This document shows, piece after piece, positions 4,809 through 53,488 of a stretch of 64,000 bases of DNA (positions within the stretch are counted from its first letter, which is position 1; the number at the start of each line of letters is the position of its first letter). The DNA lies in assembly GCA_025058215.1 (NCBI GenBank), contig JANXEO010000001.1, positions 372,001 through 436,000 of the forward strand, in the 5' to 3' direction. A model generated the notes under the pieces. The model was not told the DNA's origin, ran no database searches, and worked only from the letters and a program-made list of their open reading frames with translations. Made by a program: the position numbers and the translations under genes. The stretch is from Candidatus Methanomethylicia archaeon (GTDB taxonomy: Archaea > Thermoproteota > Methanomethylicia > Culexarchaeales > Culexarchaeaceae).

Positions 4809-5711
4809 TCATAACTCCATATAAATTCTATTCTTTAATTTACTATAGAAATCTTTATAGTCTATACGTATAAGCTTCGTTGAATACTCACTTTTCTTTA
4901 ATAATATTTTAGTTCCGGTAGGTATGCGTATGTTATATCTACCATCTGCGATCATAATAGCTTCTACACCTTTTTCACATACCTCAACTTCGATTTGAGA
5001 ATCTACTGAAATAACTATGGATCTCTGTATTAACTTTAATGGTGAAAGAGGAGTTATAATAAAAACATCTAAAGATGGATCTATTACTGGACCTCCTGCA
5101 GAAAGAGAATATGCTGTAGATCCAGTAGTTGTCGAAATTATTACACCATCACATCTACCTTTAAATACTTCACTACCATCCTTTTTAATATTTAAGCAAA
5201 TAAGTTTAGAAGGTATGCTGGTCATTATAGTTATTTCATTTAATGCATCTAATGGTGGGTACACTTCTTCAATATTTCTTAACACTTGTTCAGTATATGC
5301 AAATCGCTCTATAGTGGCCTTTAACCTCGTACAATTTCTTGTATGGTAATTTCCATTAATTGCCTTGTATATCTTTTCAGCTAATTCATTGAAATTTAAT
5401 TCATCAGGATAAATTTCGGATAGAAAACCTACAGTACCAGCATTAATAGCTAGTATTGGTATATCCCTTTCTTTTACCTCATCTGCAACTCTCAGTATAG
5501 TTCCATCACCTCCAATAGCTATAATTATATCGGCAATAGTATCTCTCAATGTAACACCATATTCAATATTTAGTTTCCAAGATAATTCTCTTTCAACAAG
5601 TATCTCTACATCTTTCCTCATCAATAATATTTCATAAATTTTCTTAGCTATTTTCAATGCATCTTCAGAATCTGTCTTCGCAATTATTATGATTTTCTTC
5701 CTAAAATTCAT
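4809..5711 (-). CDS. nadK: NAD kinase
   Basis: NAD kinase phosphorylates NAD to NADP in the cytosol. The signature GGDGTILRVADE lies near residues 68-79, with the conserved NAG(T)VGFLSE segment near residue 95 and the nucleotide-binding TGSTAYSLSAGGPV near residue 195. The 300-residue length fits the family. A TATA-like element lies about 25 bases before the ATG, so the message is probably leaderless. It shares a short divergent promoter region with the IF5A gene. Confidence 0.93.
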   Translation of the reverse strand: MNFRKKIIIIAKTDSEDALKIAKKIYEILLMRKDVEILVERELSWKLNIEYGVTLRDTIADIIIAIGGDGTILRVADEVKERDIPILAINAGTVGFLSEIYPDELNFNELAEKIYKAINGNYHTRNCTRLKATIERFAYTEQVLRNIEEVYPPLDALNEITIMTSIPSKLICLNIKKDGSEVFKGRCDGVIISTTTGSTAYSLSAGGPVIDPSLDVFIITPLSPLKLIQRSIVISVDSQIEVEVCEKGVEAIMIADGRYNIRIPTGTKILLKKSEYSTKLIRIDYKDFYSKLKNRIYMEL

Positions 5712-5799
5712 AATATAATCTCCAATGTTATGTTATTATACTTCAAAAATGTAAATGTTTTTAAAGTTGAAAATTAACTAATGTTTAAAGGTGATGTTA
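5712..5799. promoter_or_regulatory. Divergent promoter region between nadK and IF5A
   Basis: On the minus strand TATAATAA (5733-5740) lies about 25 bases from the nadK ATG. On the plus strand TTTTTAAA (5758-5765) would place the transcription start near 5788. A ribosome-binding site GGTGAT (5790-5795) then precedes ATG 5800. Assignment is by position and sequence only. Confidence 0.55.
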
Positions 5800-6192
5800 A
5801 TGAAGAGACCTGAAGAAGCTGGATCACTAAAGGTAGGATCTTTTATAATAATAGATGATGAACCTTGTAGGGTAGTTGACATTGAAAAATCTAAAGCGGG
5901 AAAACATGGATCTGCAAAAGTAAGAATAGTGGCTGTTGGAGTTTTTGATGGTAAGAAAAGATCGTATGTTGGACCTGCAGATTCACAGATTGAGGTTCCA
6001 ATAATTGAGAAAAAGATTGGTCAAGTAATTGCAGTAACTCCAAAATCGTTACAGGTAATGGATTTATCTACATATGAAGTTTTTGAGGTGGCTTTTCCTG
6101 ATGAACCAGAAATTAGAAGTAAACTTTCTCCAGGAATTGAAGTAGAATACTGGGAAATAGCTGGTAGAAGGAAGATAATGAGGGTCAAATGA
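5800..6192 (+). CDS. Translation factor IF5A
   Basis: IF5A binds the ribosomal E site and helps peptide bond formation at difficult sequences such as prolines. The hypusine/deoxyhypusine loop is visible as [10 protein letters not shown] near residues 32-41, with the modified lysine expected at the KHG position. An N-terminal SH3-like barrel and a C-terminal OB fold fit the 130-residue length. GGTGAT at 5790-5795, with a four-base spacer, selects ATG 5800 over the GTG and ATG just upstream. No deoxyhypusine synthase gene is in the window. Confidence 0.95.
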
Positions 6193-6215
6193 TAATTTAA
6201 TGAAAAGGTGGAATT

Positions 6216-7529
6216 TTGTCGAAAAAGACAAGTATAAAATTGGAAAACTGCAGATTTATTGTTACTCAAAATAATGATAAAATATTTAGAAATTCATCGA
6301 TATTAATTGAAAATGGTAAGATAGTTGAAATTTCTGGAAAAATAGCTGTTGAAGCAGATTACACTATAGATTGTAGTGATAAAATCTGTATTCCTGGATT
6401 AATAAATACACATACCCATGCACCAATGTCATTATTTAGAGGTTACGCGGATGACCTGCCATTAAAAGAATGGTTAAGTAATAAAATATGGCCATTAGAA
6501 AGAAAACTTAAGGAAGACCACTGTTATATAGGTGCTTTACTTTCATGTATCGAAATGGTTAAAAGTGGAACAACATTATTTTGGGATATGTATTTTTATC
6601 CAACGATGACAGTAAAAGCAGCTTCAGATATTGGTTTAAAAGCAATAATTTCCATTGGAGTTTTTGATTTTAATGATGCATTTTTAAGGGAGAAAATGAT
6701 AAAAGACATATACACTTTTCTCAATAACATAAAAGATTACGAACCGCGGGTTATAGGAGCTCTTGGACCTCATTCACCATATACATGTTCAGATGAACTA
6801 CTTTTGAAATGTAAAGAAATAGCTGATAAAGACAATAGATTAATACAAATACATTTAGCTGAAACTATGGAAGAACAATATGACTTTCAAGAGAAACATG
6901 GTAAGAGGGAAGTTGAATATCTACATGAACTTGGTTTTTTAAGCCCTAATTTATTAGCAGTTCATTGTGTATGGCTATCTAAAAATGAAATTAGACTACT
7001 TGGGGATAATAATGTAAAAATCTCACATTGTCCAACATCTAATATGAAATTAGCTGTTGGAGGAGTTCTACCTCTCAATGAATGTTTAAAAAATAATATA
7101 GTAGTGAGTTTAGGTACTGATGGAGCTGCAAGTAATAATTCTTTAAATATGTTTGAAGTTATGAAAATTTGCGCTTTAATACATAAACATCATACTATAA
7201 ATCCATCAATAGCACCAGCAAAATTAGTCTTTGATTTTGGAACTATTAATGGTGCTGCTGCCATCAACTATATTAACTCTTTAGGAAAAATAGTTGAAGG
7301 GGGATTTGCAGATTTAGTTGTACTAAATATGAAAAGTCCAAATATGATGCCACTATTTGAAAACAATATAATATCGCATATAGTTTATGCTGGAATATCT
7401 CAAGCTAATGTTTCACATGTAATTATTGATGGAGAAATAGTCTTGTTAAATGGTTCATTAACTAAAGTTGATGAAGGTAAGTTATATGAAGAAGTTGAAA
7501 AGACGTTTTTAAACTTATTTACAGATTAA
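6216..7529 (+). CDS. 5-methylthioadenosine/S-adenosylhomocysteine deaminase (amidohydrolase)
   Basis: The enzyme hydrolyses the 6-amino group of methylthioadenosine, S-adenosylhomocysteine or related adenosines. It is a metal-dependent amidohydrolase. NTHTHAPMSLFRG (near residue 67) supplies the first two metal histidines. HLAET (near residue 208) and AVHCVW (near residue 248) give further ligands, and LGTDGAASNN (near residue 301) the catalytic aspartate. The TTG start at 6216 follows GGTGG at normal spacing. The tail overlaps the convergent dph6 gene by 15 bases. The window also encodes an Asn-type nucleoside phosphorylase (43466-44221) that could use the methylthioinosine product. Confidence 0.88.
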   Translation: MSKKTSIKLENCRFIVTQNNDKIFRNSSILIENGKIVEISGKIAVEADYTIDCSDKICIPGLINTHTHAPMSLFRGYADDLPLKEWLSNKIWPLERKLKEDHCYIGALLSCIEMVKSGTTLFWDMYFYPTMTVKAASDIGLKAIISIGVFDFNDAFLREKMIKDIYTFLNNIKDYEPRVIGALGPHSPYTCSDELLLKCKEIADKDNRLIQIHLAETMEEQYDFQEKHGKREVEYLHELGFLSPNLLAVHCVWLSKNEIRLLGDNNVKISHCPTSNMKLAVGGVLPLNECLKNNIVVSLGTDGAASNNSLNMFEVMKICALIHKHHTINPSIAPAKLVFDFGTINGAAAINYINSLGKIVEGGFADLVVLNMKSPNMMPLFENNIISHIVYAGISQANVSHVIIDGEIVLLNGSLTKVDEGKLYEEVEKTFLNLFTD

Positions 7530-8177
7530 TTCAGCACTTTTAATATGTAGTATTCCTCTATCTCCAAACCATCTCTTTTCAAAATCTTTAAGCAAAATCC
7601 TCTTTTTAAAAAAGGGGGCATCATATACAAAAGTTTCGTATTCTCCACCTTCACCACATACACTTATTCCATACTTCCTACTTTTAGTAAGTAAATCATT
7701 TATTGTTTCAGTATTTATTTCACGTCCAAGCCAATTTTCATCTAAACCATATGCTGCAACTAAAACTATTATTGAATGAATACCACAATTCACAATTATC
7801 TTAAGTAGTCTAAATGGGTCTTTCATCCATAATGGTGTAAATAGTTTTAACCCAACTTTCCTACATACTCTTATTAAAAAATCCTTTTGGAAATCAGAAT
7901 ATATAACTCCAGATAATAAACCATTTACATCAAATTCCTTTTTAACAAATTTTAATATTTCTACAAGATTTTCATAATTTTCAAATATTTTAATATATGG
8001 AATCTCCATAGCTTTAGATTGTAAGTTTACCCATTTGATATTAGGATAGTGCCAATACATGGAATCTTCTATAGGTTCTATAGTTATTAAACACTTAACA
8101 TCGAATCCCTGATTTATAGCGTAATATATTGAGAAAGTTGAATCTTTACCACCACTAAATAAAGCTGCAACGTTGAT
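7515..8177 (-). CDS. dph6: Diphthine-ammonia ligase (Dph6), ATP pyrophosphatase family
   Basis: Dph6 performs the last step of diphthamide formation on elongation factor 2. The PP-loop SGGKDS lies at the N-terminus in NVAALFSGGKDST. The conserved C-terminal block CGEGGEYETFVYDAP is present near residue 185. Length is normal, about 220 residues. The start is odd. The only ordinary start codon, TTG at 8186, abuts the ribosome-binding site GGAGG with no spacer. ATC at 8177 lies 8 bases after GGAGGT and aligns with the initiator Met of other Dph6 proteins, so I prefer ATC; TTG 8186 is the conventional alternative. Confidence 0.9.
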   Translation of the reverse strand: MNVAALFSGGKDSTFSIYYAINQGFDVKCLITIEPIEDSMYWHYPNIKWVNLQSKAMEIPYIKIFENYENLVEILKFVKKEFDVNGLLSGVIYSDFQKDFLIRVCRKVGLKLFTPLWMKDPFRLLKIIVNCGIHSIIVLVAAYGLDENWLGREINTETINDLLTKSRKYGISVCGEGGEYETFVYDAPFFKKRILLKDFEKRWFGDRGILHIKSAELICK

Positions 8178-8186
8178 ATTGTTCAA

Positions 8187-8277
8187 CCTCCAATAAGTTA
8201 AATACAGAACGTACTTTTAAACAAAATTTAAAAATATTAAAAACATAATCATGAATGTTATTTGAGGTTAAATAAAA
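8187..8277. promoter_or_regulatory. Divergent dph6/srp54 intergenic region
   Basis: TTTAAAAATATT at 8227-8238 is a plausible TATA element for srp54, and GAGGTTA at 8264-8270 is its ribosome-binding site. On the minus strand GGAGGT at 8186-8191 is the dph6 ribosome-binding site. Confidence 0.5.
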
Positions 8278-9618
8278 ATGGTATTAGAATCTTTAAGTAA
8301 AGCTTTAGGTGATGCAATAAGGAAGATTATTAAAGCTCCGATAGTAGATGAAAAGACATTGAAAGAATTCATAAGAGATATTCAGAGAGCTCTTTTACAA
8401 GCAGATGTAAATGTCAACTTGGTTTTACAAATATCTCAAAATATCGAAAAGAGAATAAAGGAAGAGAAATTACCACCAGGATTTTCTAAAAGAGAATTAC
8501 TACTTAAGATTCTTTACGATGAAATGATTAAGTTGCTTGGTGGTAATATAACTGAAATTGCTACGTTGCCAACTAAAAGGCCATATGTTATTATGCTTGT
8601 TGGTATACAAGGATCTGGAAAAACGACTTCTGCCGCTAAATTAGCATGGTATTATAAGAAGAGGAATTTAAAAGTAAGTTTAGTATGTGCAGATACATAT
8701 CGACCTGGAGCCTACGCACAATTAAAACAATTGGGTGAAAAAATAGGTGTAGAAGTATATTGGGAAGATGCTAGTAATTCTATAGCTATAGCTGTTAATG
8801 GCGTGAAGAAACTTGCTAAAGAAGGTTATGATATTATAATAATTGATACTGCTGGAAGACATAAAGAAGAGAAGAGTTTAATAAATGAAATGCGTGAAAT
8901 AGCTGAAAAGGTAAAACCCAACGAAATAATGATGATTATTGATGCTACAATTGGACAACAAGCATTAATTCAAGCTAAAGCATTTCATGAAGCTACAAAT
9001 ATTGGATCTATATTTTTAACTAAACTTGATGGTTCTGCAAGGGGAGGAGGAGCTTTATCAGCAGTAGCTGCCACTGGAGCTACAATAAAATTCATTGGTG
9101 TTGGAGAGAAAATCGAAGAAATAGAAACTTTTAATCCCCGTAATTTCGTTGGAAGGATATTGGGATTAGGGGATATAGAATCATTAATTGAAAAATTTGA
9201 AGTAGTAGAATATAAACCAAAAGAGGAAGATGTAGAACGCATCTTATCTGGCAAATTAACATTTAATGATCTGTTGATACAATTTAAATCGATCTCAAGT
9301 ATGGGACCATTACACAAATTAATACAATTAATACCTGGATTATCATTAAATCTACCGGAGGAAGCTTTAGAATTATCAAAAGACAAAATAAAAAAGTATA
9401 TTGCTATAATAGAATCTATGACTAAAGAGGAAAGAGATAATCCAGAAATCATTGATAGATCGAGAATACGTAGAATAGCTTTTGGTTCTGGAACATCTAT
9501 TCAAGATGTTGAAGAACTTTTAAATCAATATAAAAATATGAAAAAAATTATGAAAACCTTAAAAAGAAAAACTAAAATGCTTGATTTACTAAAGGGCTTT
9601 AAGGGGTTTAAAACATAA
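8278..9618 (+). CDS. srp54: Signal recognition particle GTPase SRP54
   Basis: SRP54 binds signal sequences and 7S RNA and delivers ribosomes to the FtsY receptor. The N domain spans roughly residues 1-90. The G domain follows with GIQGSGKTT (G1, near 108), DTAGR (G3, near 194), and TKLDGSARGGG (G4 region, near 249). The M domain begins near 310 with FKSISSMGPLHKLIQLIPG and ends with the basic helix RIRRIAFGSGTS and a lysine-rich tail. Its partners SRP19 (41.5 kb) and SRP RNA (18.3 kb) are also in the window. Confidence 0.97.
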   Translation: MVLESLSKALGDAIRKIIKAPIVDEKTLKEFIRDIQRALLQADVNVNLVLQISQNIEKRIKEEKLPPGFSKRELLLKILYDEMIKLLGGNITEIATLPTKRPYVIMLVGIQGSGKTTSAAKLAWYYKKRNLKVSLVCADTYRPGAYAQLKQLGEKIGVEVYWEDASNSIAIAVNGVKKLAKEGYDIIIIDTAGRHKEEKSLINEMREIAEKVKPNEIMMIIDATIGQQALIQAKAFHEATNIGSIFLTKLDGSARGGGALSAVAATGATIKFIGVGEKIEEIETFNPRNFVGRILGLGDIESLIEKFEVVEYKPKEEDVERILSGKLTFNDLLIQFKSISSMGPLHKLIQLIPGLSLNLPEEALELSKDKIKKYIAIIESMTKEERDNPEIIDRSRIRRIAFGSGTSIQDVEELLNQYKNMKKIMKTLKRKTKMLDLLKGFKGFKT

Positions 9619-48548: not shown

Positions 48549-48740
48549 TCACTTTTTAGAACTTAACCACCATTTTAAATACTCTTTTTTCTTTTCTTTT
48601 TCATCTTTTAAGTTCTCTTTATCTAATTCTGCTTTAATAGATTCATATTTTGATATTGATAATCCGCATTTTACACATACAAATGCTCCTTTTCTATTAT
48701 AGTACATTTCTCCTCCACATTCAGGGCATATTCTAACCAT
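48549..48740 (-). CDS. Small zinc-ribbon protein
   Basis: The 63-residue product has one zinc ribbon, CPECGG and CVKCGLS, followed by a charged helix rich in Lys and Glu (ELDKENLKDEKEKKKEYLKWW, shown partly as ENLKDEKEKKKEYLKWW). Its first 8 bases overlap the end of the membrane HTH gene, so it is probably coexpressed with it. It resembles archaeal ribbons related to transcription factor S ends, but no specific function can be given. Confidence 0.7.
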   Translation of the reverse strand: MVRICPECGGEMYYNRKGAFVCVKCGLSISKYESIKAELDKENLKDEKEKKKEYLKWWLSSKK

Positions 48741-49362
48741 ATTTCTTCGCCAACCCTGTAATTATTTTTAGGATTATCCATGTTAATCCACCGATACTAA
48801 TATATATTACTATTGTCAGCAGGTAGGTTACTGGTATTGCGGTTACACCTATTCTTAATGCTGCTACTATTGACGTTATACTTGAAAATATAACTCCACC
48901 TTTCAATAAGTCTTTATAATTGGAATTTAAAAATCCAAGAATTAAACCATTAATTATAGACAATAAGATTATAATGTTATGTACACCGCCTAGAATAATC
49001 ATAGAAGCTCCAGTTAATAGAGGTATTGTTAATCTCACTTTAATAATGTCAATTCCATCTTTTATGGTTAATTTCCTTTTAGATTCAATTTTGATATCTC
49101 CTACACTTTTCTGCATTAGTTCTAATATCTTAACACCTTTATTTGTTAATTTGTAATTGTATCCTTTATCTACTTGAAATCTCTCTATCAAGTTTCTTTC
49201 TACCAATATTTTTAAATGTTCTGAAATTGTTGATTTAGCTTTTCCAGTTAATTTTGATAAATCGTTTAATCCAAGTTCCTTACTTCTTAACAATATTAGT
49301 ATTTTTAATCTAGTTTCTTCACTGGCAATCTTTAAATCTTCAATTTCAATTTTTTCTTCCAT
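48733..49362 (-). CDS. ArsR-like winged-helix regulator with membrane domain
   Basis: Residues 1-80 form an ArsR-type winged helix: ASEETRLKILILLRSKELGLNDL (in parts, RLKILILLRSKELG), recognition helix AKSTISEHLKILVERNLIERF and wing KGYNYKLTNKG. From residue 105 four hydrophobic segments follow (for example LLTGASMIILGGVHNIIILLS, GGVIFSSITSIVAAL and TYLLTIVIYISIGGLTWIIL, given in parts). A DNA-binding domain tethered to a membrane could couple a membrane state to transcription. The ligand and target are unknown. The divergent radA cluster starts 112 bases away. Confidence 0.75.
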   Translation of the reverse strand: MEEKIEIEDLKIASEETRLKILILLRSKELGLNDLSKLTGKAKSTISEHLKILVERNLIERFQVDKGYNYKLTNKGVKILELMQKSVGDIKIESKRKLTIKDGIDIIKVRLTIPLLTGASMIILGGVHNIIILLSIINGLILGFLNSNYKDLLKGGVIFSSITSIVAALRIGVTAIPVTYLLTIVIYISIGGLTWIILKIITGLAKKYG

Positions 49363-49474: not shown

Positions 49475-50029
49475 ATGAATTTTAAATGGCTTCTATTAAT
49501 CTCAATTATAGTGCTTGTATTTATAAACCCAATATTACCACTTATATTAATATCTCCATTGCTGATGTTATATGCTATTAGAATTATACATAATAAGAAT
49601 ACTTCTAGTAGCCATAAAGTTATTAAGGAGATTTTATTTAGGAATATGAAGTTTAATAATGGCGAAGAAGTTAAAGTTTTAATTAAATTCAAAGTTTTTG
49701 ATAGGTTTCTAAAGGTTTATGGCACTTTTGGACATATGAATATTTATAGTGGAATATCTTTTTCAGGAGTTAAAGATTTTGGTTTATTGAGGAGTATACT
49801 ATTGACTATACCCTTCAATTACTACTTAATTTTTATTGGTGGAAACACTTCTAAAGAGACTTTCATATTACTACTAAATGTTAAAGTAAGTTGGTATGAG
49901 GAAGAATCTGTAATTTCTAAAATTGTTGAAGTAATTAATTCATTATCTCTCTCTATACCTGCTAATGAAATTAAAATTCTAAATGGTTATGAACTTACAT
50001 CTAAGATACTGCCTTTTATGGAGGTGTAA
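49475..50029 (+). CDS. Membrane protein, first gene of the radA cluster
   Basis: The 184 residues begin with two closely spaced hydrophobic segments (WLLLISIIVLVFINPILPLI and PLLMLYAIRII), then a soluble domain of mixed alpha/beta character (FNNGEEVKVLIKFKVFDRFLKV, partly NGEEVKVLIKFKVFD). I do not recognise the family. The gene is two bases before the pseudo-ATPase gene, so the two should be cotranscribed. It could anchor the cluster products at the membrane, but nothing in the sequence proves this. Confidence 0.7.
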   Translation: MNFKWLLLISIIVLVFINPILPLILISPLLMLYAIRIIHNKNTSSSHKVIKEILFRNMKFNNGEEVKVLIKFKVFDRFLKVYGTFGHMNIYSGISFSGVKDFGLLRSILLTIPFNYYLIFIGGNTSKETFILLLNVKVSWYEEESVISKIVEVINSLSLSIPANEIKILNGYELTSKILPFMEV

Positions 50030-50031
50030 AG

Positions 50032-51357
50032 ATGTTTGATAATTCATTTAAATTAGAATTTATAAATTTGCATGATCTACTTCATGAAAGCAGAAATCTA
50101 ATAATAAGCTCCTTTGGTCCACTCAATTATAGATTCAAAATTAATATTTCTATAATTGATTATAGTGATTGGAATTATTGTTTAATAATAGATCCTCATG
50201 GTTTATACAAATATCTTAGAAATAAATTTATGGATTTTAAACTTTTAAAACTTGGTTTTAATGCATCAATAAATCCCTTTAGTTTTAAATCTGAAGATCC
50301 ATATTCAGAGATTAAATTTATTGTTGACATTTTTAGGTTGAGTTTCCATATAGGTGAAGATTCCGCTAGAATACTTCAAAATTCACTTATTAACTTAGTG
50401 AGTAGAGATATTTTTAATCCAAATGTTAAGGATGTAATTTCTGAAATTGAAATTCAAAGTAGTCTGTTTAGATATAGTTTAGGTATCAATAAATTACTTA
50501 GATTCCTTGATTTAATGACAGTGGGACGTGTAGGTTCATCATTCAATTTTCATCATGGTTTCACCAATTTAAAACCCGGTTTAAATGTAGTTGATATAAG
50601 TCACTTACCAGTGGAATTTAGAATTTTTTCATCACTATTAACGTTATTTCATTTTTCAAATATTTTTGATTTTATTGTAATTGAAGATGTGGATTTAATA
50701 TCTCCAGCTTTAATTAGAGCGTTGAGAGAGGAGTATGCTGTATCATTTGAACGATCAATGTTATTTTATGATATCTTAAAAGGCAAAGGTCATGGTTATA
50801 TACTACTATCTTGTTATGCTCCATCATTTATTAATCCCAAAGTTAGGTCTATTGTGAGTATAACTTTATCCCCAATACTTGTTAATGGAGAATATTTTAA
50901 TGATATAGTAGATCTTTTCTCCATAGATGACAATAATCTAAAGGTTTTTAGACATATTGATAATAAAAAGTACTTTTTAGTTTTCATTAATGGAGATTTG
51001 AAGATTTCAAATTACAGTTGTGATTTAGAGTTTAAAGGTGAATTTGAAATTGAAGATGAACTCAAAATATCTAAACCGATGAAGATAAGTGTTTTACATA
51101 AACTTTTTGGTGATAAAGCAGATTTAGCTCATAGTATTTTATCCTTTTTATCTCAAGGAACTGTTGAAAAGGATTTGATGATTGGTTATGCTACAAGTGT
51201 TTTAGGTTTAGATGGAACTGAAGCTAGGAAGATGTTAACAATTTTAACAGTTAATGGTTTGATTTTTGAAAGTATACATCGTGATGGTAAATGTCATCTT
51301 AAGATTTCCCCTATTGGTGCATCTATACTGGAGGAATATAATAGGACTGGTGATTGA
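50032..51357 (+). CDS. Degenerate HerA/VirB4-like P-loop ATPase with C-terminal winged helix
   Basis: The order of motifs follows the HerA/FtsK/VirB4 ATPases: CLIIDPHGLYKYL near residue 50, FNASINPFSF near 76, an all-helical insert near 95-160, GLNVVDISHLPVEFRIFSSL near 183 and a Walker-B-like DFIVIEDVDLISPA near 213. The Walker A position (residues 27-36, SFGPLNYRFK) lacks the Gly-Lys-Ser/Thr core, and the sensor TQ is replaced by LSCYAPSF. The protein therefore probably does not hydrolyse ATP. The last 95 residues look like a winged helix (EARKMLTILTVNGLIFES). A strong GGAGGTG site precedes ATG 50032. The family call is by motif pattern only. Confidence 0.6.
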   Translation: MFDNSFKLEFINLHDLLHESRNLIISSFGPLNYRFKINISIIDYSDWNYCLIIDPHGLYKYLRNKFMDFKLLKLGFNASINPFSFKSEDPYSEIKFIVDIFRLSFHIGEDSARILQNSLINLVSRDIFNPNVKDVISEIEIQSSLFRYSLGINKLLRFLDLMTVGRVGSSFNFHHGFTNLKPGLNVVDISHLPVEFRIFSSLLTLFHFSNIFDFIVIEDVDLISPALIRALREEYAVSFERSMLFYDILKGKGHGYILLSCYAPSFINPKVRSIVSITLSPILVNGEYFNDIVDLFSIDDNNLKVFRHIDNKKYFLVFINGDLKISNYSCDLEFKGEFEIEDELKISKPMKISVLHKLFGDKADLAHSILSFLSQGTVEKDLMIGYATSVLGLDGTEARKMLTILTVNGLIFESIHRDGKCHLKISPIGASILEEYNRTGD

Positions 51358-51358
51358 T

Positions 51359-51691
51359 TTGTTTACATTTATGAAATGGGATAATGATGGTAGAGGATTA
51401 TCAATTCAATTAAAAACTTCAGAAAAATATTCTGCTTTCTTATCTTTTAGAGCTTACAGTAATTCTATACGTATCTGTTTAATTATATATGCTAAGAGGG
51501 ATATCTCTGGTAAAATAGTTTTTGAATTATTTATGAATTTAAATGAGTTTGAATTTTTAATTAAATCCCTCCAAAAATTGAGTTCTTTGTTAAATATTGA
51601 AGGAGGGTTTTCCATTGTTAATGAATTGGATAAAGTGATAATGCATCTAAAGTGGTTAAGGAATTATATTGGAGGTGGGGGAAATGAGTGA
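51359..51691 (+). CDS. Small unknown protein of the radA cluster
   Basis: The product has about 110 residues and appears beta-rich at first (GLSIQLKTSEKYSAFLSFRA, SIRICLIIYAKRDISGKIVF), then helical (NEFEFLIKSLQKLSSLLN). No family is recognised. TTG 51359 follows GGTGAT with a short spacer and starts next to the upstream stop; ATG 51371 is an alternative. The final 8 bases overlap radA, whose ribosome-binding site lies within its last codons. Tight packing suggests that the product works with its neighbours. Confidence 0.6.
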   Translation: MFTFMKWDNDGRGLSIQLKTSEKYSAFLSFRAYSNSIRICLIIYAKRDISGKIVFELFMNLNEFEFLIKSLQKLSSLLNIEGGFSIVNELDKVIMHLKWLRNYIGGGGNE

Positions 51692-52655
51692 AGAACTTAA
51701 AAATTTAGAAGATATTCCTGGTATAGGCTCTAGTACTGCTGAAAAATTGAGGAAAGCAGGTATATACAGTCCAAAACAATTATCATTGTATAGTATAGAT
51801 GAATTAATTACATTATTGGATTTAAGCGATTACTCTAGATTAAATAAAGCTCTAATACATGTTAGAAGTGTTTTCAATAGAAGTAGAGTTATTAATGGTT
51901 TGGAATTTTCATCTATTAGAAAAAACTTACCAAAGATTTCCACAAAAGTGGATTCAATAGATAAACTTCTTAGAGGTGGAATTGAACCTAAATGTATATA
52001 TGAATTTGTAGGTGAATATGGTTCTGGTAAATCTCAATTATGTTTTCAAATATCCGTTACCACTCAATTAACTAGGAATAATGGTGGAATTGGTGGAAGT
52101 GTATTTTACATTGATTGTGAAGGAACATTCTCTGATTCTAAAATTTGTAAAATAGCTGAAAGATTCAACTTTCTCGAACCACTTAAAAATATTTTTATTT
52201 CTCAACCAGTAAATGTTGATGAACAAATAGATTTTATAAGGATTATGGCTCCTAAACTTATTGAAAATAAAAATGTTAAATTAATTGTACTTGATGGATT
52301 AATTACACATGTTAGAGCTGAGTATAAGGGTAGGGAAATGCTTGTTGCAAGACAGCAAACATTAAACTATATATTGAATTTTTTAATGCGTTTAGCAATG
52401 ATATACGATATTTACGTTGTAGTAACAAATCAAGTAATTTCTAAACCGACTTTTGGCGGTGGAATTACAGCAGCTGGAGGTAATGTAGTTGCACATGCAA
52501 CCACACATAGATTATTCCTTCAACACGCATCATCTGATTATGCAAAGAAGGGTATGGAAATTAGGAAAATGATAGTTGAAGATAGTCCATATATTCCAAG
52601 AGGTGAATATGCACTTTTTGCGATATGTGAAGAAGGGGTTATCGATGTATTATAA
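51684..52655 (+). CDS. radA: RadA-type recombinase, divergent
   Basis: RadA forms filaments on single-stranded DNA and drives strand exchange. An N-terminal helix-hairpin-helix domain (LEDIPGIGSSTAEKLRKAGI) precedes the RecA core. Walker A is GEYGSGKSQ at residues 110-118, the catalytic Glu is in YIDCEGTF (residue 146), and Walker B is LIVLDGLITHVRAEY near 200. Several usual residues differ. The polymerisation motif FxxA is FSSI (75-78), EGTFRPER is EGTFSDSK, VDSLT is LDGLI, and loop L2 lacks the usual GGH. GGAGGTGGGGGAA precedes ATG 51684. It may be the main RadA of a divergent lineage or a paralogue. Confidence 0.88.
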   Translation: MSEELKNLEDIPGIGSSTAEKLRKAGIYSPKQLSLYSIDELITLLDLSDYSRLNKALIHVRSVFNRSRVINGLEFSSIRKNLPKISTKVDSIDKLLRGGIEPKCIYEFVGEYGSGKSQLCFQISVTTQLTRNNGGIGGSVFYIDCEGTFSDSKICKIAERFNFLEPLKNIFISQPVNVDEQIDFIRIMAPKLIENKNVKLIVLDGLITHVRAEYKGREMLVARQQTLNYILNFLMRLAMIYDIYVVVTNQVISKPTFGGGITAAGGNVVAHATTHRLFLQHASSDYAKKGMEIRKMIVEDSPYIPRGEYALFAICEEGVIDVL

Positions 52656-52977
52656 TTTAAGTATTTTAGAAAAGTTTAAGTTAAAATTTAAAGATAAAGG
52701 GAGATCGTGGGTTAATCGTTGTATTGCTAGATTAAATGACGTTACTAAAACTAGTGATCCTAATGTATGGTTTGTGAAAGGTAAATCTAAATTTGGAGAT
52801 TACTATGAAATTTATAAAGTCACCTTTATTAAAAGTGCTGGAAAATATGTTTGTACCTGTTATTCAATTAGTAAAATGTATGGCTTAATTAGAATGAGGA
52901 ATATTTGTACACATGTAGGTTCTGTAATTTTATGGAGAATGCTTAAAGGTGATTTAATTGAAGAATCTAAAACTTGA
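52645..52977 (+). CDS. SWIM zinc-finger protein
   Basis: The 110-residue product has the SWIM pattern CxC-x(n)-CxH: YVCTCYS (Cys 70, Cys 72) and ICTH (Cys 88, His 90), 15 residues apart. SWIM domains occur in SWS1/Shu2, partners of Rad51 paralogues in eukaryotes, and in archaeal proteins of unknown function. Here the gene overlaps radA by 11 bases, a direct operon link between SWIM and a recombinase. ATG 52645 is chosen because longer forms lie entirely inside radA. Confidence 0.85.
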   Translation: MYYNLSILEKFKLKFKDKGRSWVNRCIARLNDVTKTSDPNVWFVKGKSKFGDYYEIYKVTFIKSAGKYVCTCYSISKMYGLIRMRNICTHVGSVILWRMLKGDLIEESKT

Positions 52978-53488
52978 AGAATTAATACATTTAGTATCTT
53001 TTACTAATACCCAAATACTATTTTTTGGTAATAGTTCTATTGCCCTTATTAATATACTCCCAAAGTTTACCTGTGAAAAGTTGTTGTTTGTATTAGAGCA
53101 ACCATTTCCACTATATAATTTTTCGAATTATGAGCAATATATACTTGAATGTGATGTTTTTAATCCATGGGATATATTTAAGTTTAAAGATATGGTTAAA
53201 ATAATTATTTATCTACCTAGATTTCCATCAATAAAGCATTACAATCATAAAACATGTGGTAAATTATCTTACAAAATTTTTATTGATAAAATTCAATTCA
53301 TACTTAAAGTTCTAAAACTTCTTTCCTTAAGACTCTTTTTAATTTTCAAAGGTGGAATTATCTCTTTTGACCCGAAACCGTATATTCATCCATACTTCAT
53401 TAACTACATAATTTCATTATTTGATTTAGCAATATACTGTGATGATGGTTTTACACTAGTAAAATCTCTTTATGAAACTGGTTTATAA
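52958..53488 (+). CDS. Unknown protein, last gene of the radA cluster, possible decayed RecA fold
   Basis: The 176 residues match no family I know. The order of hydrophobic strands recalls a small RecA-like core without catalytic residues: TQILFFGNSSIALI in place of a P-loop, KLLFVLEQPF, VKIIIYLPRFP in place of Walker B, and LRLFLIFKGGI. This comparison is speculative. TTG 52958 follows GGTGAT with a four-base spacer, a strong start. The gene overlaps the SWIM gene by 20 bases and the convergent radical SAM gene by 19. Confidence 0.65.
   Translation: MKNLKLEELIHLVSFTNTQILFFGNSSIALINILPKFTCEKLLFVLEQPFPLYNFSNYEQYILECDVFNPWDIFKFKDMVKIIIYLPRFPSIKHYNHKTCGKLSYKIFIDKIQFILKVLKLLSLRLFLIFKGGIISFDPKPYIHPYFINYIISLFDLAIYCDDGFTLVKSLYETGL

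Follow-up and report, generated by a model that had tools for sequence, protein, structure and literature searches.

A HerA/VirB4-like protein without an ATP site is encoded beside a second RadA in a conserved archaeal operon

The described systems closest to the locus reported here are the HerA machinery of end resection, the VirB4 ATPases of type IV secretion systems, the Shu complexes of eukaryotes and CedD, which serves DNA import in the Sulfolobales. HerA normally partners with NurA in end resection and belongs to the set HerA-NurA-Mre11-Rad50. Shu complexes join a SWIM protein, SWS1 or Shu2, with RAD51 paralogues, and CXC..CXHXXA is given as the signature of this SWIM protein (PMC6316741). 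In Saccharolobus, DNA import requires CedD (PMC11868833). In the open-licence PMC literature, we found no paper pointing to a pseudo-ATPase of the HerA/VirB4 class that is coupled to a recombinase, or to the operon described below.

This operon lies in an incomplete archaeal genome of 452 kb (45.6% complete), and the window that we analysed is a stretch of 64,000 nucleotides on one of its contigs. Six consecutive genes, separated by short gaps or overlapping, extend from 49475 to 53488. The second of them (50032-51357, + strand), which has exactly the boundaries given in an earlier note on this DNA, encodes a protein of 441 aa with a HerA/VirB4-like core without ATP site, to which we refer as pseudo-HerA. 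The same gene order was found in 35 genomes (13 family labels), 28 inside the class and seven outside it (G226, G266, G213, G203, G286, G290, G238), a count of synteny and not of independent detection, since the profiles used were built from members that had partly been picked by position. The order in G238 deviates, with the SWIM gene before RadA and no match to the 110-aa gene. Profile searches across the class with pseudo-HerA and the 110-aa protein covered whole genomes and returned both in the same 28 of 40 genomes and neither in the other 12.

Compared with HerA, pseudo-HerA has the same core fold (Z 19-21) but no P-loop. Its core is also like that of VirB4 (4ag5), whereas the ATP site is missing and the C-terminal winged helix lies outside the matched range. 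With the Shu complex the operon has in common a SWIM protein encoded together with a RadA/RAD51-family paralogue; no counterpart of pseudo-HerA, the membrane gene or the 110-aa gene is known in Shu complexes. The earlier note had placed the protein in the context of HerA-NurA end resection, and this part of it was not borne out: neither the operon genes nor the two neighbours searched with them match NurA, and the partner that the operon tracks is a pilus/CedD-type locus. In a single lineage (L133:41-10024, from G286), the pseudo-HerA/RadA2/SWIM operon is located directly downstream of genes for HerA, a Mre11-like and a Rad50-like protein on the same strand, and in this lineage there may be a link to resection. 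CedD resembles the present arrangement in combining a HerA/VirB4 core with a nearby membrane segment; however, CedD is a single chain of transmembrane part, N-terminal domain and ATPase domain (PMC11868833), whereas here the P-loop is missing and separate genes encode membrane part and core. CedD is also the only NCBIfam model of a DNA pump that several pseudo-HerA members touch, although weakly (4/22, best E 0.023), and the window protein itself has no match to this model at E<=1. We considered the membrane protein as a split-off N-terminal domain of CedD (VirB4-type) and found no support for this: compared with the N-terminal regions of three CedD-like proteins, its profile gave no match (hhalign probability 1.1).

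The kinship of pseudo-HerA to HerA and VirB4 becomes visible only through profiles and structure. The single window sequence gave no convincing match in Pfam, NCBIfam, PDB sequences or genome contigs. Matches to Abi_2, DUF1820 and NTF2 that arose in the analysis were set aside as weak. At the family level, 6 of 22 members match Pfam DUF87 (best 2.3e-5), and a profile comparison with P-loop-bearing HerA/CedD relatives by hhalign reached a probability of 99.6 (E 5.6e-24). A structure model built from 22 orthologues (mean pLDDT 85.4, pTM 0.72) has VirB4 4ag5 as its closest structural match (Z 25.1, 3.3 A, 312 residues), followed by the C-domain of DndH (Z 23.2); HerA proteins score above TrwB-type coupling proteins (Z 18), and the VirB4/HerA matches span residues 8-335. 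The fold expected in the earlier note thus holds, and pseudo-HerA has a RecA-like core with HerA/VirB4 topology, which places it in the HerA/VirB4 branch of the FtsK-HerA superfamily. Residues 354-439 form a C-terminal winged helix in the model, with high confidence, and the pseudo-HerA profile (A2) has weak matches at this end to PadR-type winged helices in the PDB (E 0.05-0.1). Small stand-alone winged-helix proteins like this domain, encoded in pairs by ORFs of 85-102 aa, were seen at three further loci (L137, L138, L139), and G026 carries a second, partial copy (C37:6331-6857) consisting of the 110-aa gene and only the winged-helix end of pseudo-HerA.

The motifs IDPHG, INPF and VIED, which had been read from the sequence before, are all found in the ORF, and VIED aligns with IEEA/DEA of the P-loop-bearing HerA/CedD relatives. 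Where these relatives carry G-x4-GK[S/T], pseudo-HerA has SFGPLNYRFK (residues 27-36), which spans the junction from strand 1 to helix 1 of the model (E22-28, H31-44), and at the site of their S/A-Q motif it reads LSCYAP, so that the sensor glutamine is absent, as claimed. The alignment of operon-linked copies with seven P-loop-bearing relatives shows that the loss is general: Walker A (GxxxxGK[ST]) is intact in none of 31 alignable operon copies compared to 6/6 relatives, the catalytic (second) Walker B acid in two of 31 (L019, L129) compared to 7/7, and the sensor glutamine in 0/30 compared to 7/7. By alignment, the Walker A lysine is replaced by asparagine in the window protein and elsewhere by arginine, glutamine, valine and others. 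Not alignable at Walker A were L130, L134 and L140, and L146 among the relatives; in L134 (G290), seemingly still more of the HerA core is gone. Before the count, we dropped an HTH protein (L131_4428), a true HerA (L133_41), L142 and three fragments (L062_6734, L066_6818, L021_8195), and A2 matches outside the class that are P-loop-bearing HerA/CedD proteins (L135, L136, L143, L144, L145) were not counted as orthologues. The L142 locus (5334-8781, G066) has a different arrangement, with a large membrane protein, a HerA-like protein of 411 aa without P-loop and a KaiC-like ATPase with P-loop, and this KaiC variant was left out of the operon counts.

Between close relatives, the gene is under purifying selection: comparisons inside the sister genus give dN/dS values of 0.11 and 0.13, and comparison with the window gives 0.21. 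Together with the motif loss across the family, this argues for an ancient, maintained pseudo-ATPase and not for a decaying gene; judged by sequence, the ORF is a vertically inherited, conserved pseudo-ATPase of the HerA/VirB4 branch. In distant members, identity to the window protein is higher in the winged helix (25%) than in the HerA core (17%). A role as scaffold or DNA-binding adaptor would be compatible with the retained fold of the model, the better-conserved winged helix and the purifying selection.

The operon also encodes RadA2, a second RadA (51684..52655, + strand) with an HHH domain and an intact Walker A (GEYGSGKS) that matches NCBIfam RadA at E 2.8e-81; its start is likely the ATG at 51684, after GGAGGTGG. 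The operon RadA has an intact Walker A in all 35 loci. Most near-complete genomes encode at least one further full-length RadA with ~40% identity (e.g. G001:C1:651148), and in a midpoint-rooted tree 34 operon RadAs are split from 14 encoded elsewhere by a branch with support 89/82. For this tree, the long-branched L096 was omitted and the RadA of L079 (G013) was assigned to the operon by position. The RadA of L054 was counted via L079. In three genomes that have no pseudo-HerA (G011, G015, G025), all full-length RadAs obtained fall on the "elsewhere" side.

Between pseudo-HerA and RadA2 lies the gene of a beta-rich protein of 110 aa (51359..51691, + strand; exact start uncertain), which is present in 34/35 loci. 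Its model (pLDDT 87.7) comprises five strands and two helices, and its best structural neighbours, all below Z 8, are Pur-alpha (Z 7.2), MRP1/2 (6.6), MoSub1 (6.2), WHY2 (6.0) and PC4 of phage T5 (5.9), with unrelated folds also at 6-7; Foldseek returned nothing at E<=0.001 for this model. These five share a common single-strand-binding fold. Tentatively, the model suggests a PC4/Pur-alpha/Whirly-like fold and a possible single-strand binder.

Upstream of pseudo-HerA, a membrane protein with an N-terminal hydrophobic hairpin and a soluble domain is encoded at 49475..50029 (+ strand), for which we propose the role of an anchor. Its gene takes this place in 34/35 loci, the exception (G266) being a contig end, and 28/28 family members have a hydrophobic stretch close to the N terminus, which in most is long enough to form a hairpin. 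Divergent to the operon, an ArsR-type HTH protein with a hydrophobic C-terminal half (48733..49362, - strand; Pfam HTH_5, E 4e-11) is a conserved neighbour and possible regulator. In 28/35 loci, a homologue of it is encoded close to the operon RadA, on the other strand.

The two distal genes vary more. The SWIM-type protein (52645..52977, + strand) carries CxCx15CxH, and its gene overlaps the end of RadA2. CxC..CxH is invariant in all 15 members, whose genes lie next to RadA2 in 15/35 loci, and the last position of the CXC..CXHXXA signature is alanine in 10/15 and serine in 5/15; matches to Pfam SWIM are weak (3/15 members, best 0.038). The last gene (52958..53488, + strand) encodes a degenerate RecA/RadB-like protein that has no P-loop in the window copy. 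It was found in 23/35 loci, and in a poor alignment of 18 members the P-loop is intact in one (L019; RadB-like, 1.5e-13) and absent in the other 17; not all of these members are certain to be homologous. Searches of the loci found no SWIM gene in 20/35 and no last gene in 12/35, where some stretches stop at contig ends, and their absence from so many loci argues that the two are not essential parts.

Our data also connect the operon to a second locus. The close relatives of pseudo-HerA in the class that carry a P-loop are CedD-like: they match NCBIfam CedD with E values of 3e-61 and 3e-64, short of its cut-off, and their genes adjoin that of a pilus-type secretion ATPase (Pfam T2SSE). Most ATPase loci encode a pair of proteins, each with about four hydrophobic segments, and some contain small single-helix proteins, possibly pilin-like. 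In L020:1200-8019, and also in L161, L162 and L163, the pilus-type ATPase, two four-segment membrane proteins, a CedD-like translocase and divergent single-helix (pilin-like) genes stand together, which makes these loci candidates for a DNA-uptake locus outside the Sulfolobales. Among ten ATPase loci examined, a CedD-like gene with a strong match to the CedD-like profile (A7) adjoins the ATPase in G038, G028, G213, G266 and G226 and a weaker relative in G012 and G007, and none lies next to it in the window genome, G001 and G016. In the window genome, the ATPase (G000:C1:307659-308882, outside the window) is accompanied by two four-segment membrane proteins. Strong A7 matches in the class are confined to families f6 and f9.

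In the class, the ATPase profile leaves a gap between strong matches (E 1e-76 or better) and generic pilus ATPases, which reach 1e-31 at best. With a cut of 1e-70, chosen after the values were seen, 27 of the 40 genomes have both pseudo-HerA and the pilus-type ATPase, one has pseudo-HerA only (G039, 59% complete), four have the ATPase only (G004, G018, G022, G035, all 75% complete or less) and eight have neither. Restricting the comparison to the 21 genomes with >=90% completeness and <=5% contamination leaves 16 with both, five with neither and none discordant (Fisher 4.9e-5, phylogeny ignored). Few independent losses lie behind this co-occurrence. Among the RadAs encoded elsewhere, that of G011 clusters in the tree with those of G013 and G009, which carry the operon, and away from those of G015 and G025; provided that this RadA gene tracks the species, operon and ATPase were probably lost together two times or more. 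Outside the class, where the genomes for comparison were hand-picked from earlier listings and not random, and the cut of 1e-45 was again chosen after the values were seen, the ATPase is present in 6/7 operon genomes, in 3/3 f14 genomes (among them G066 with the KaiC variant) and in 1/22 others (G218, which has it without the operon). The remaining operon genome, G290 (85% complete), has only a generic pilus ATPase match (7.4e-28).

As the main reading, to which we give a probability of roughly 0.55, pseudo-HerA would be an ATP-independent, membrane-anchored scaffold that brings DNA into position for its dedicated RadA, perhaps once that DNA has been imported. The complex and its function, as we infer them, would involve the membrane protein of the preceding gene holding pseudo-HerA at the membrane, as a dock and not a pump. 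The winged helix would bind DNA and present it to RadA2, while the PC4/Pur-like protein may capture or coat single strands. RadA2, in most genomes the one operon product with an intact ATPase, would form the filament, which the SWIM protein and the RecA-like pseudo-paralogue, where present, could load or stabilise. The least certain step is the substrate, for which DNA imported by a pilus/CedD-like apparatus appears most likely, as suggested by the link of the operon to the pilus/CedD-like locus. Extended to both loci, a tentative picture is that of a DNA-exchange machine, in which the pilus-type ATPase and two membrane platform proteins, with a CedD-like translocase in several families, import DNA and the dead HerA/VirB4 dock hands it to RadA with its helpers, in a pathway like natural transformation in culexarchaea and related archaea; we regard this as possible but doubtful.

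The same genes could instead serve as a mediator of ordinary chromosomal repair without import, as an archaeal counterpart of Shu, with the anchor tying repair to the membrane-attached chromosome. RadA2, the SWIM protein (CxC..CxHxx[A/S]) and the degenerate RecA-like protein do resemble SWS1/RAD51-paralogue complexes as described in PMC6316741, and the operon of L133 adjoins HerA-Mre11-Rad50. However, five near-complete genomes (G011, G015, G019, G023, G025) lack the operon, a pattern unlike core repair, and G011, G015 and G025, the ones examined among them, still have a different full-length RadA, while the operon tracks the pilus-type ATPase instead, so that we consider this reading rather improbable, if worth keeping in view. 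That pseudo-HerA is a regulatory or structural subunit in a mixed ring with an active CedD/HerA hexamer would agree with family f6, where the P-loop-bearing A7 protein is strongly matched in 16/16 operon-bearing genomes and in 0/5 near-complete genomes without the operon. This appears unlikely, as operon-holding genomes of f1, f2, f7 and f8 have no strong A7 match and the pseudo-HerA gene accompanies RadA2, not CedD, in 35/35 loci.

Residual ATP binding by a reshaped site could be imagined from the arginine that stands near the place of the lysine in many f6 copies (e.g. GIGPERSE), but the Walker B acid and the sensor glutamine are also gone in nearly all members and the residue at the lysine place varies between families, which renders it very unlikely that the site is functional. 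Finally, HerA partners are known from SIR2/DUF4297 systems, and defence HerA proteins are among the structural neighbours of the model, which would fit an anti-phage defence module. With PADLOC at E 0.01, however, the operon genes gave nothing except a weak mad8 match to RadA (E 0.0054), with none for pseudo-HerA, and the operon is inherited within families in stable contexts; we therefore rejected a defence role as highly improbable.

If the membrane-anchored scaffold for RadA2 proves true, it would provide a testable account, with six named genes, of how DNA import is linked to homologous recombination in archaea outside the Sulfolobales. It would also offer an archaeal setting for a SWIM protein beside a RadA-family paralogue, as in the Shu complexes of eukaryotes.
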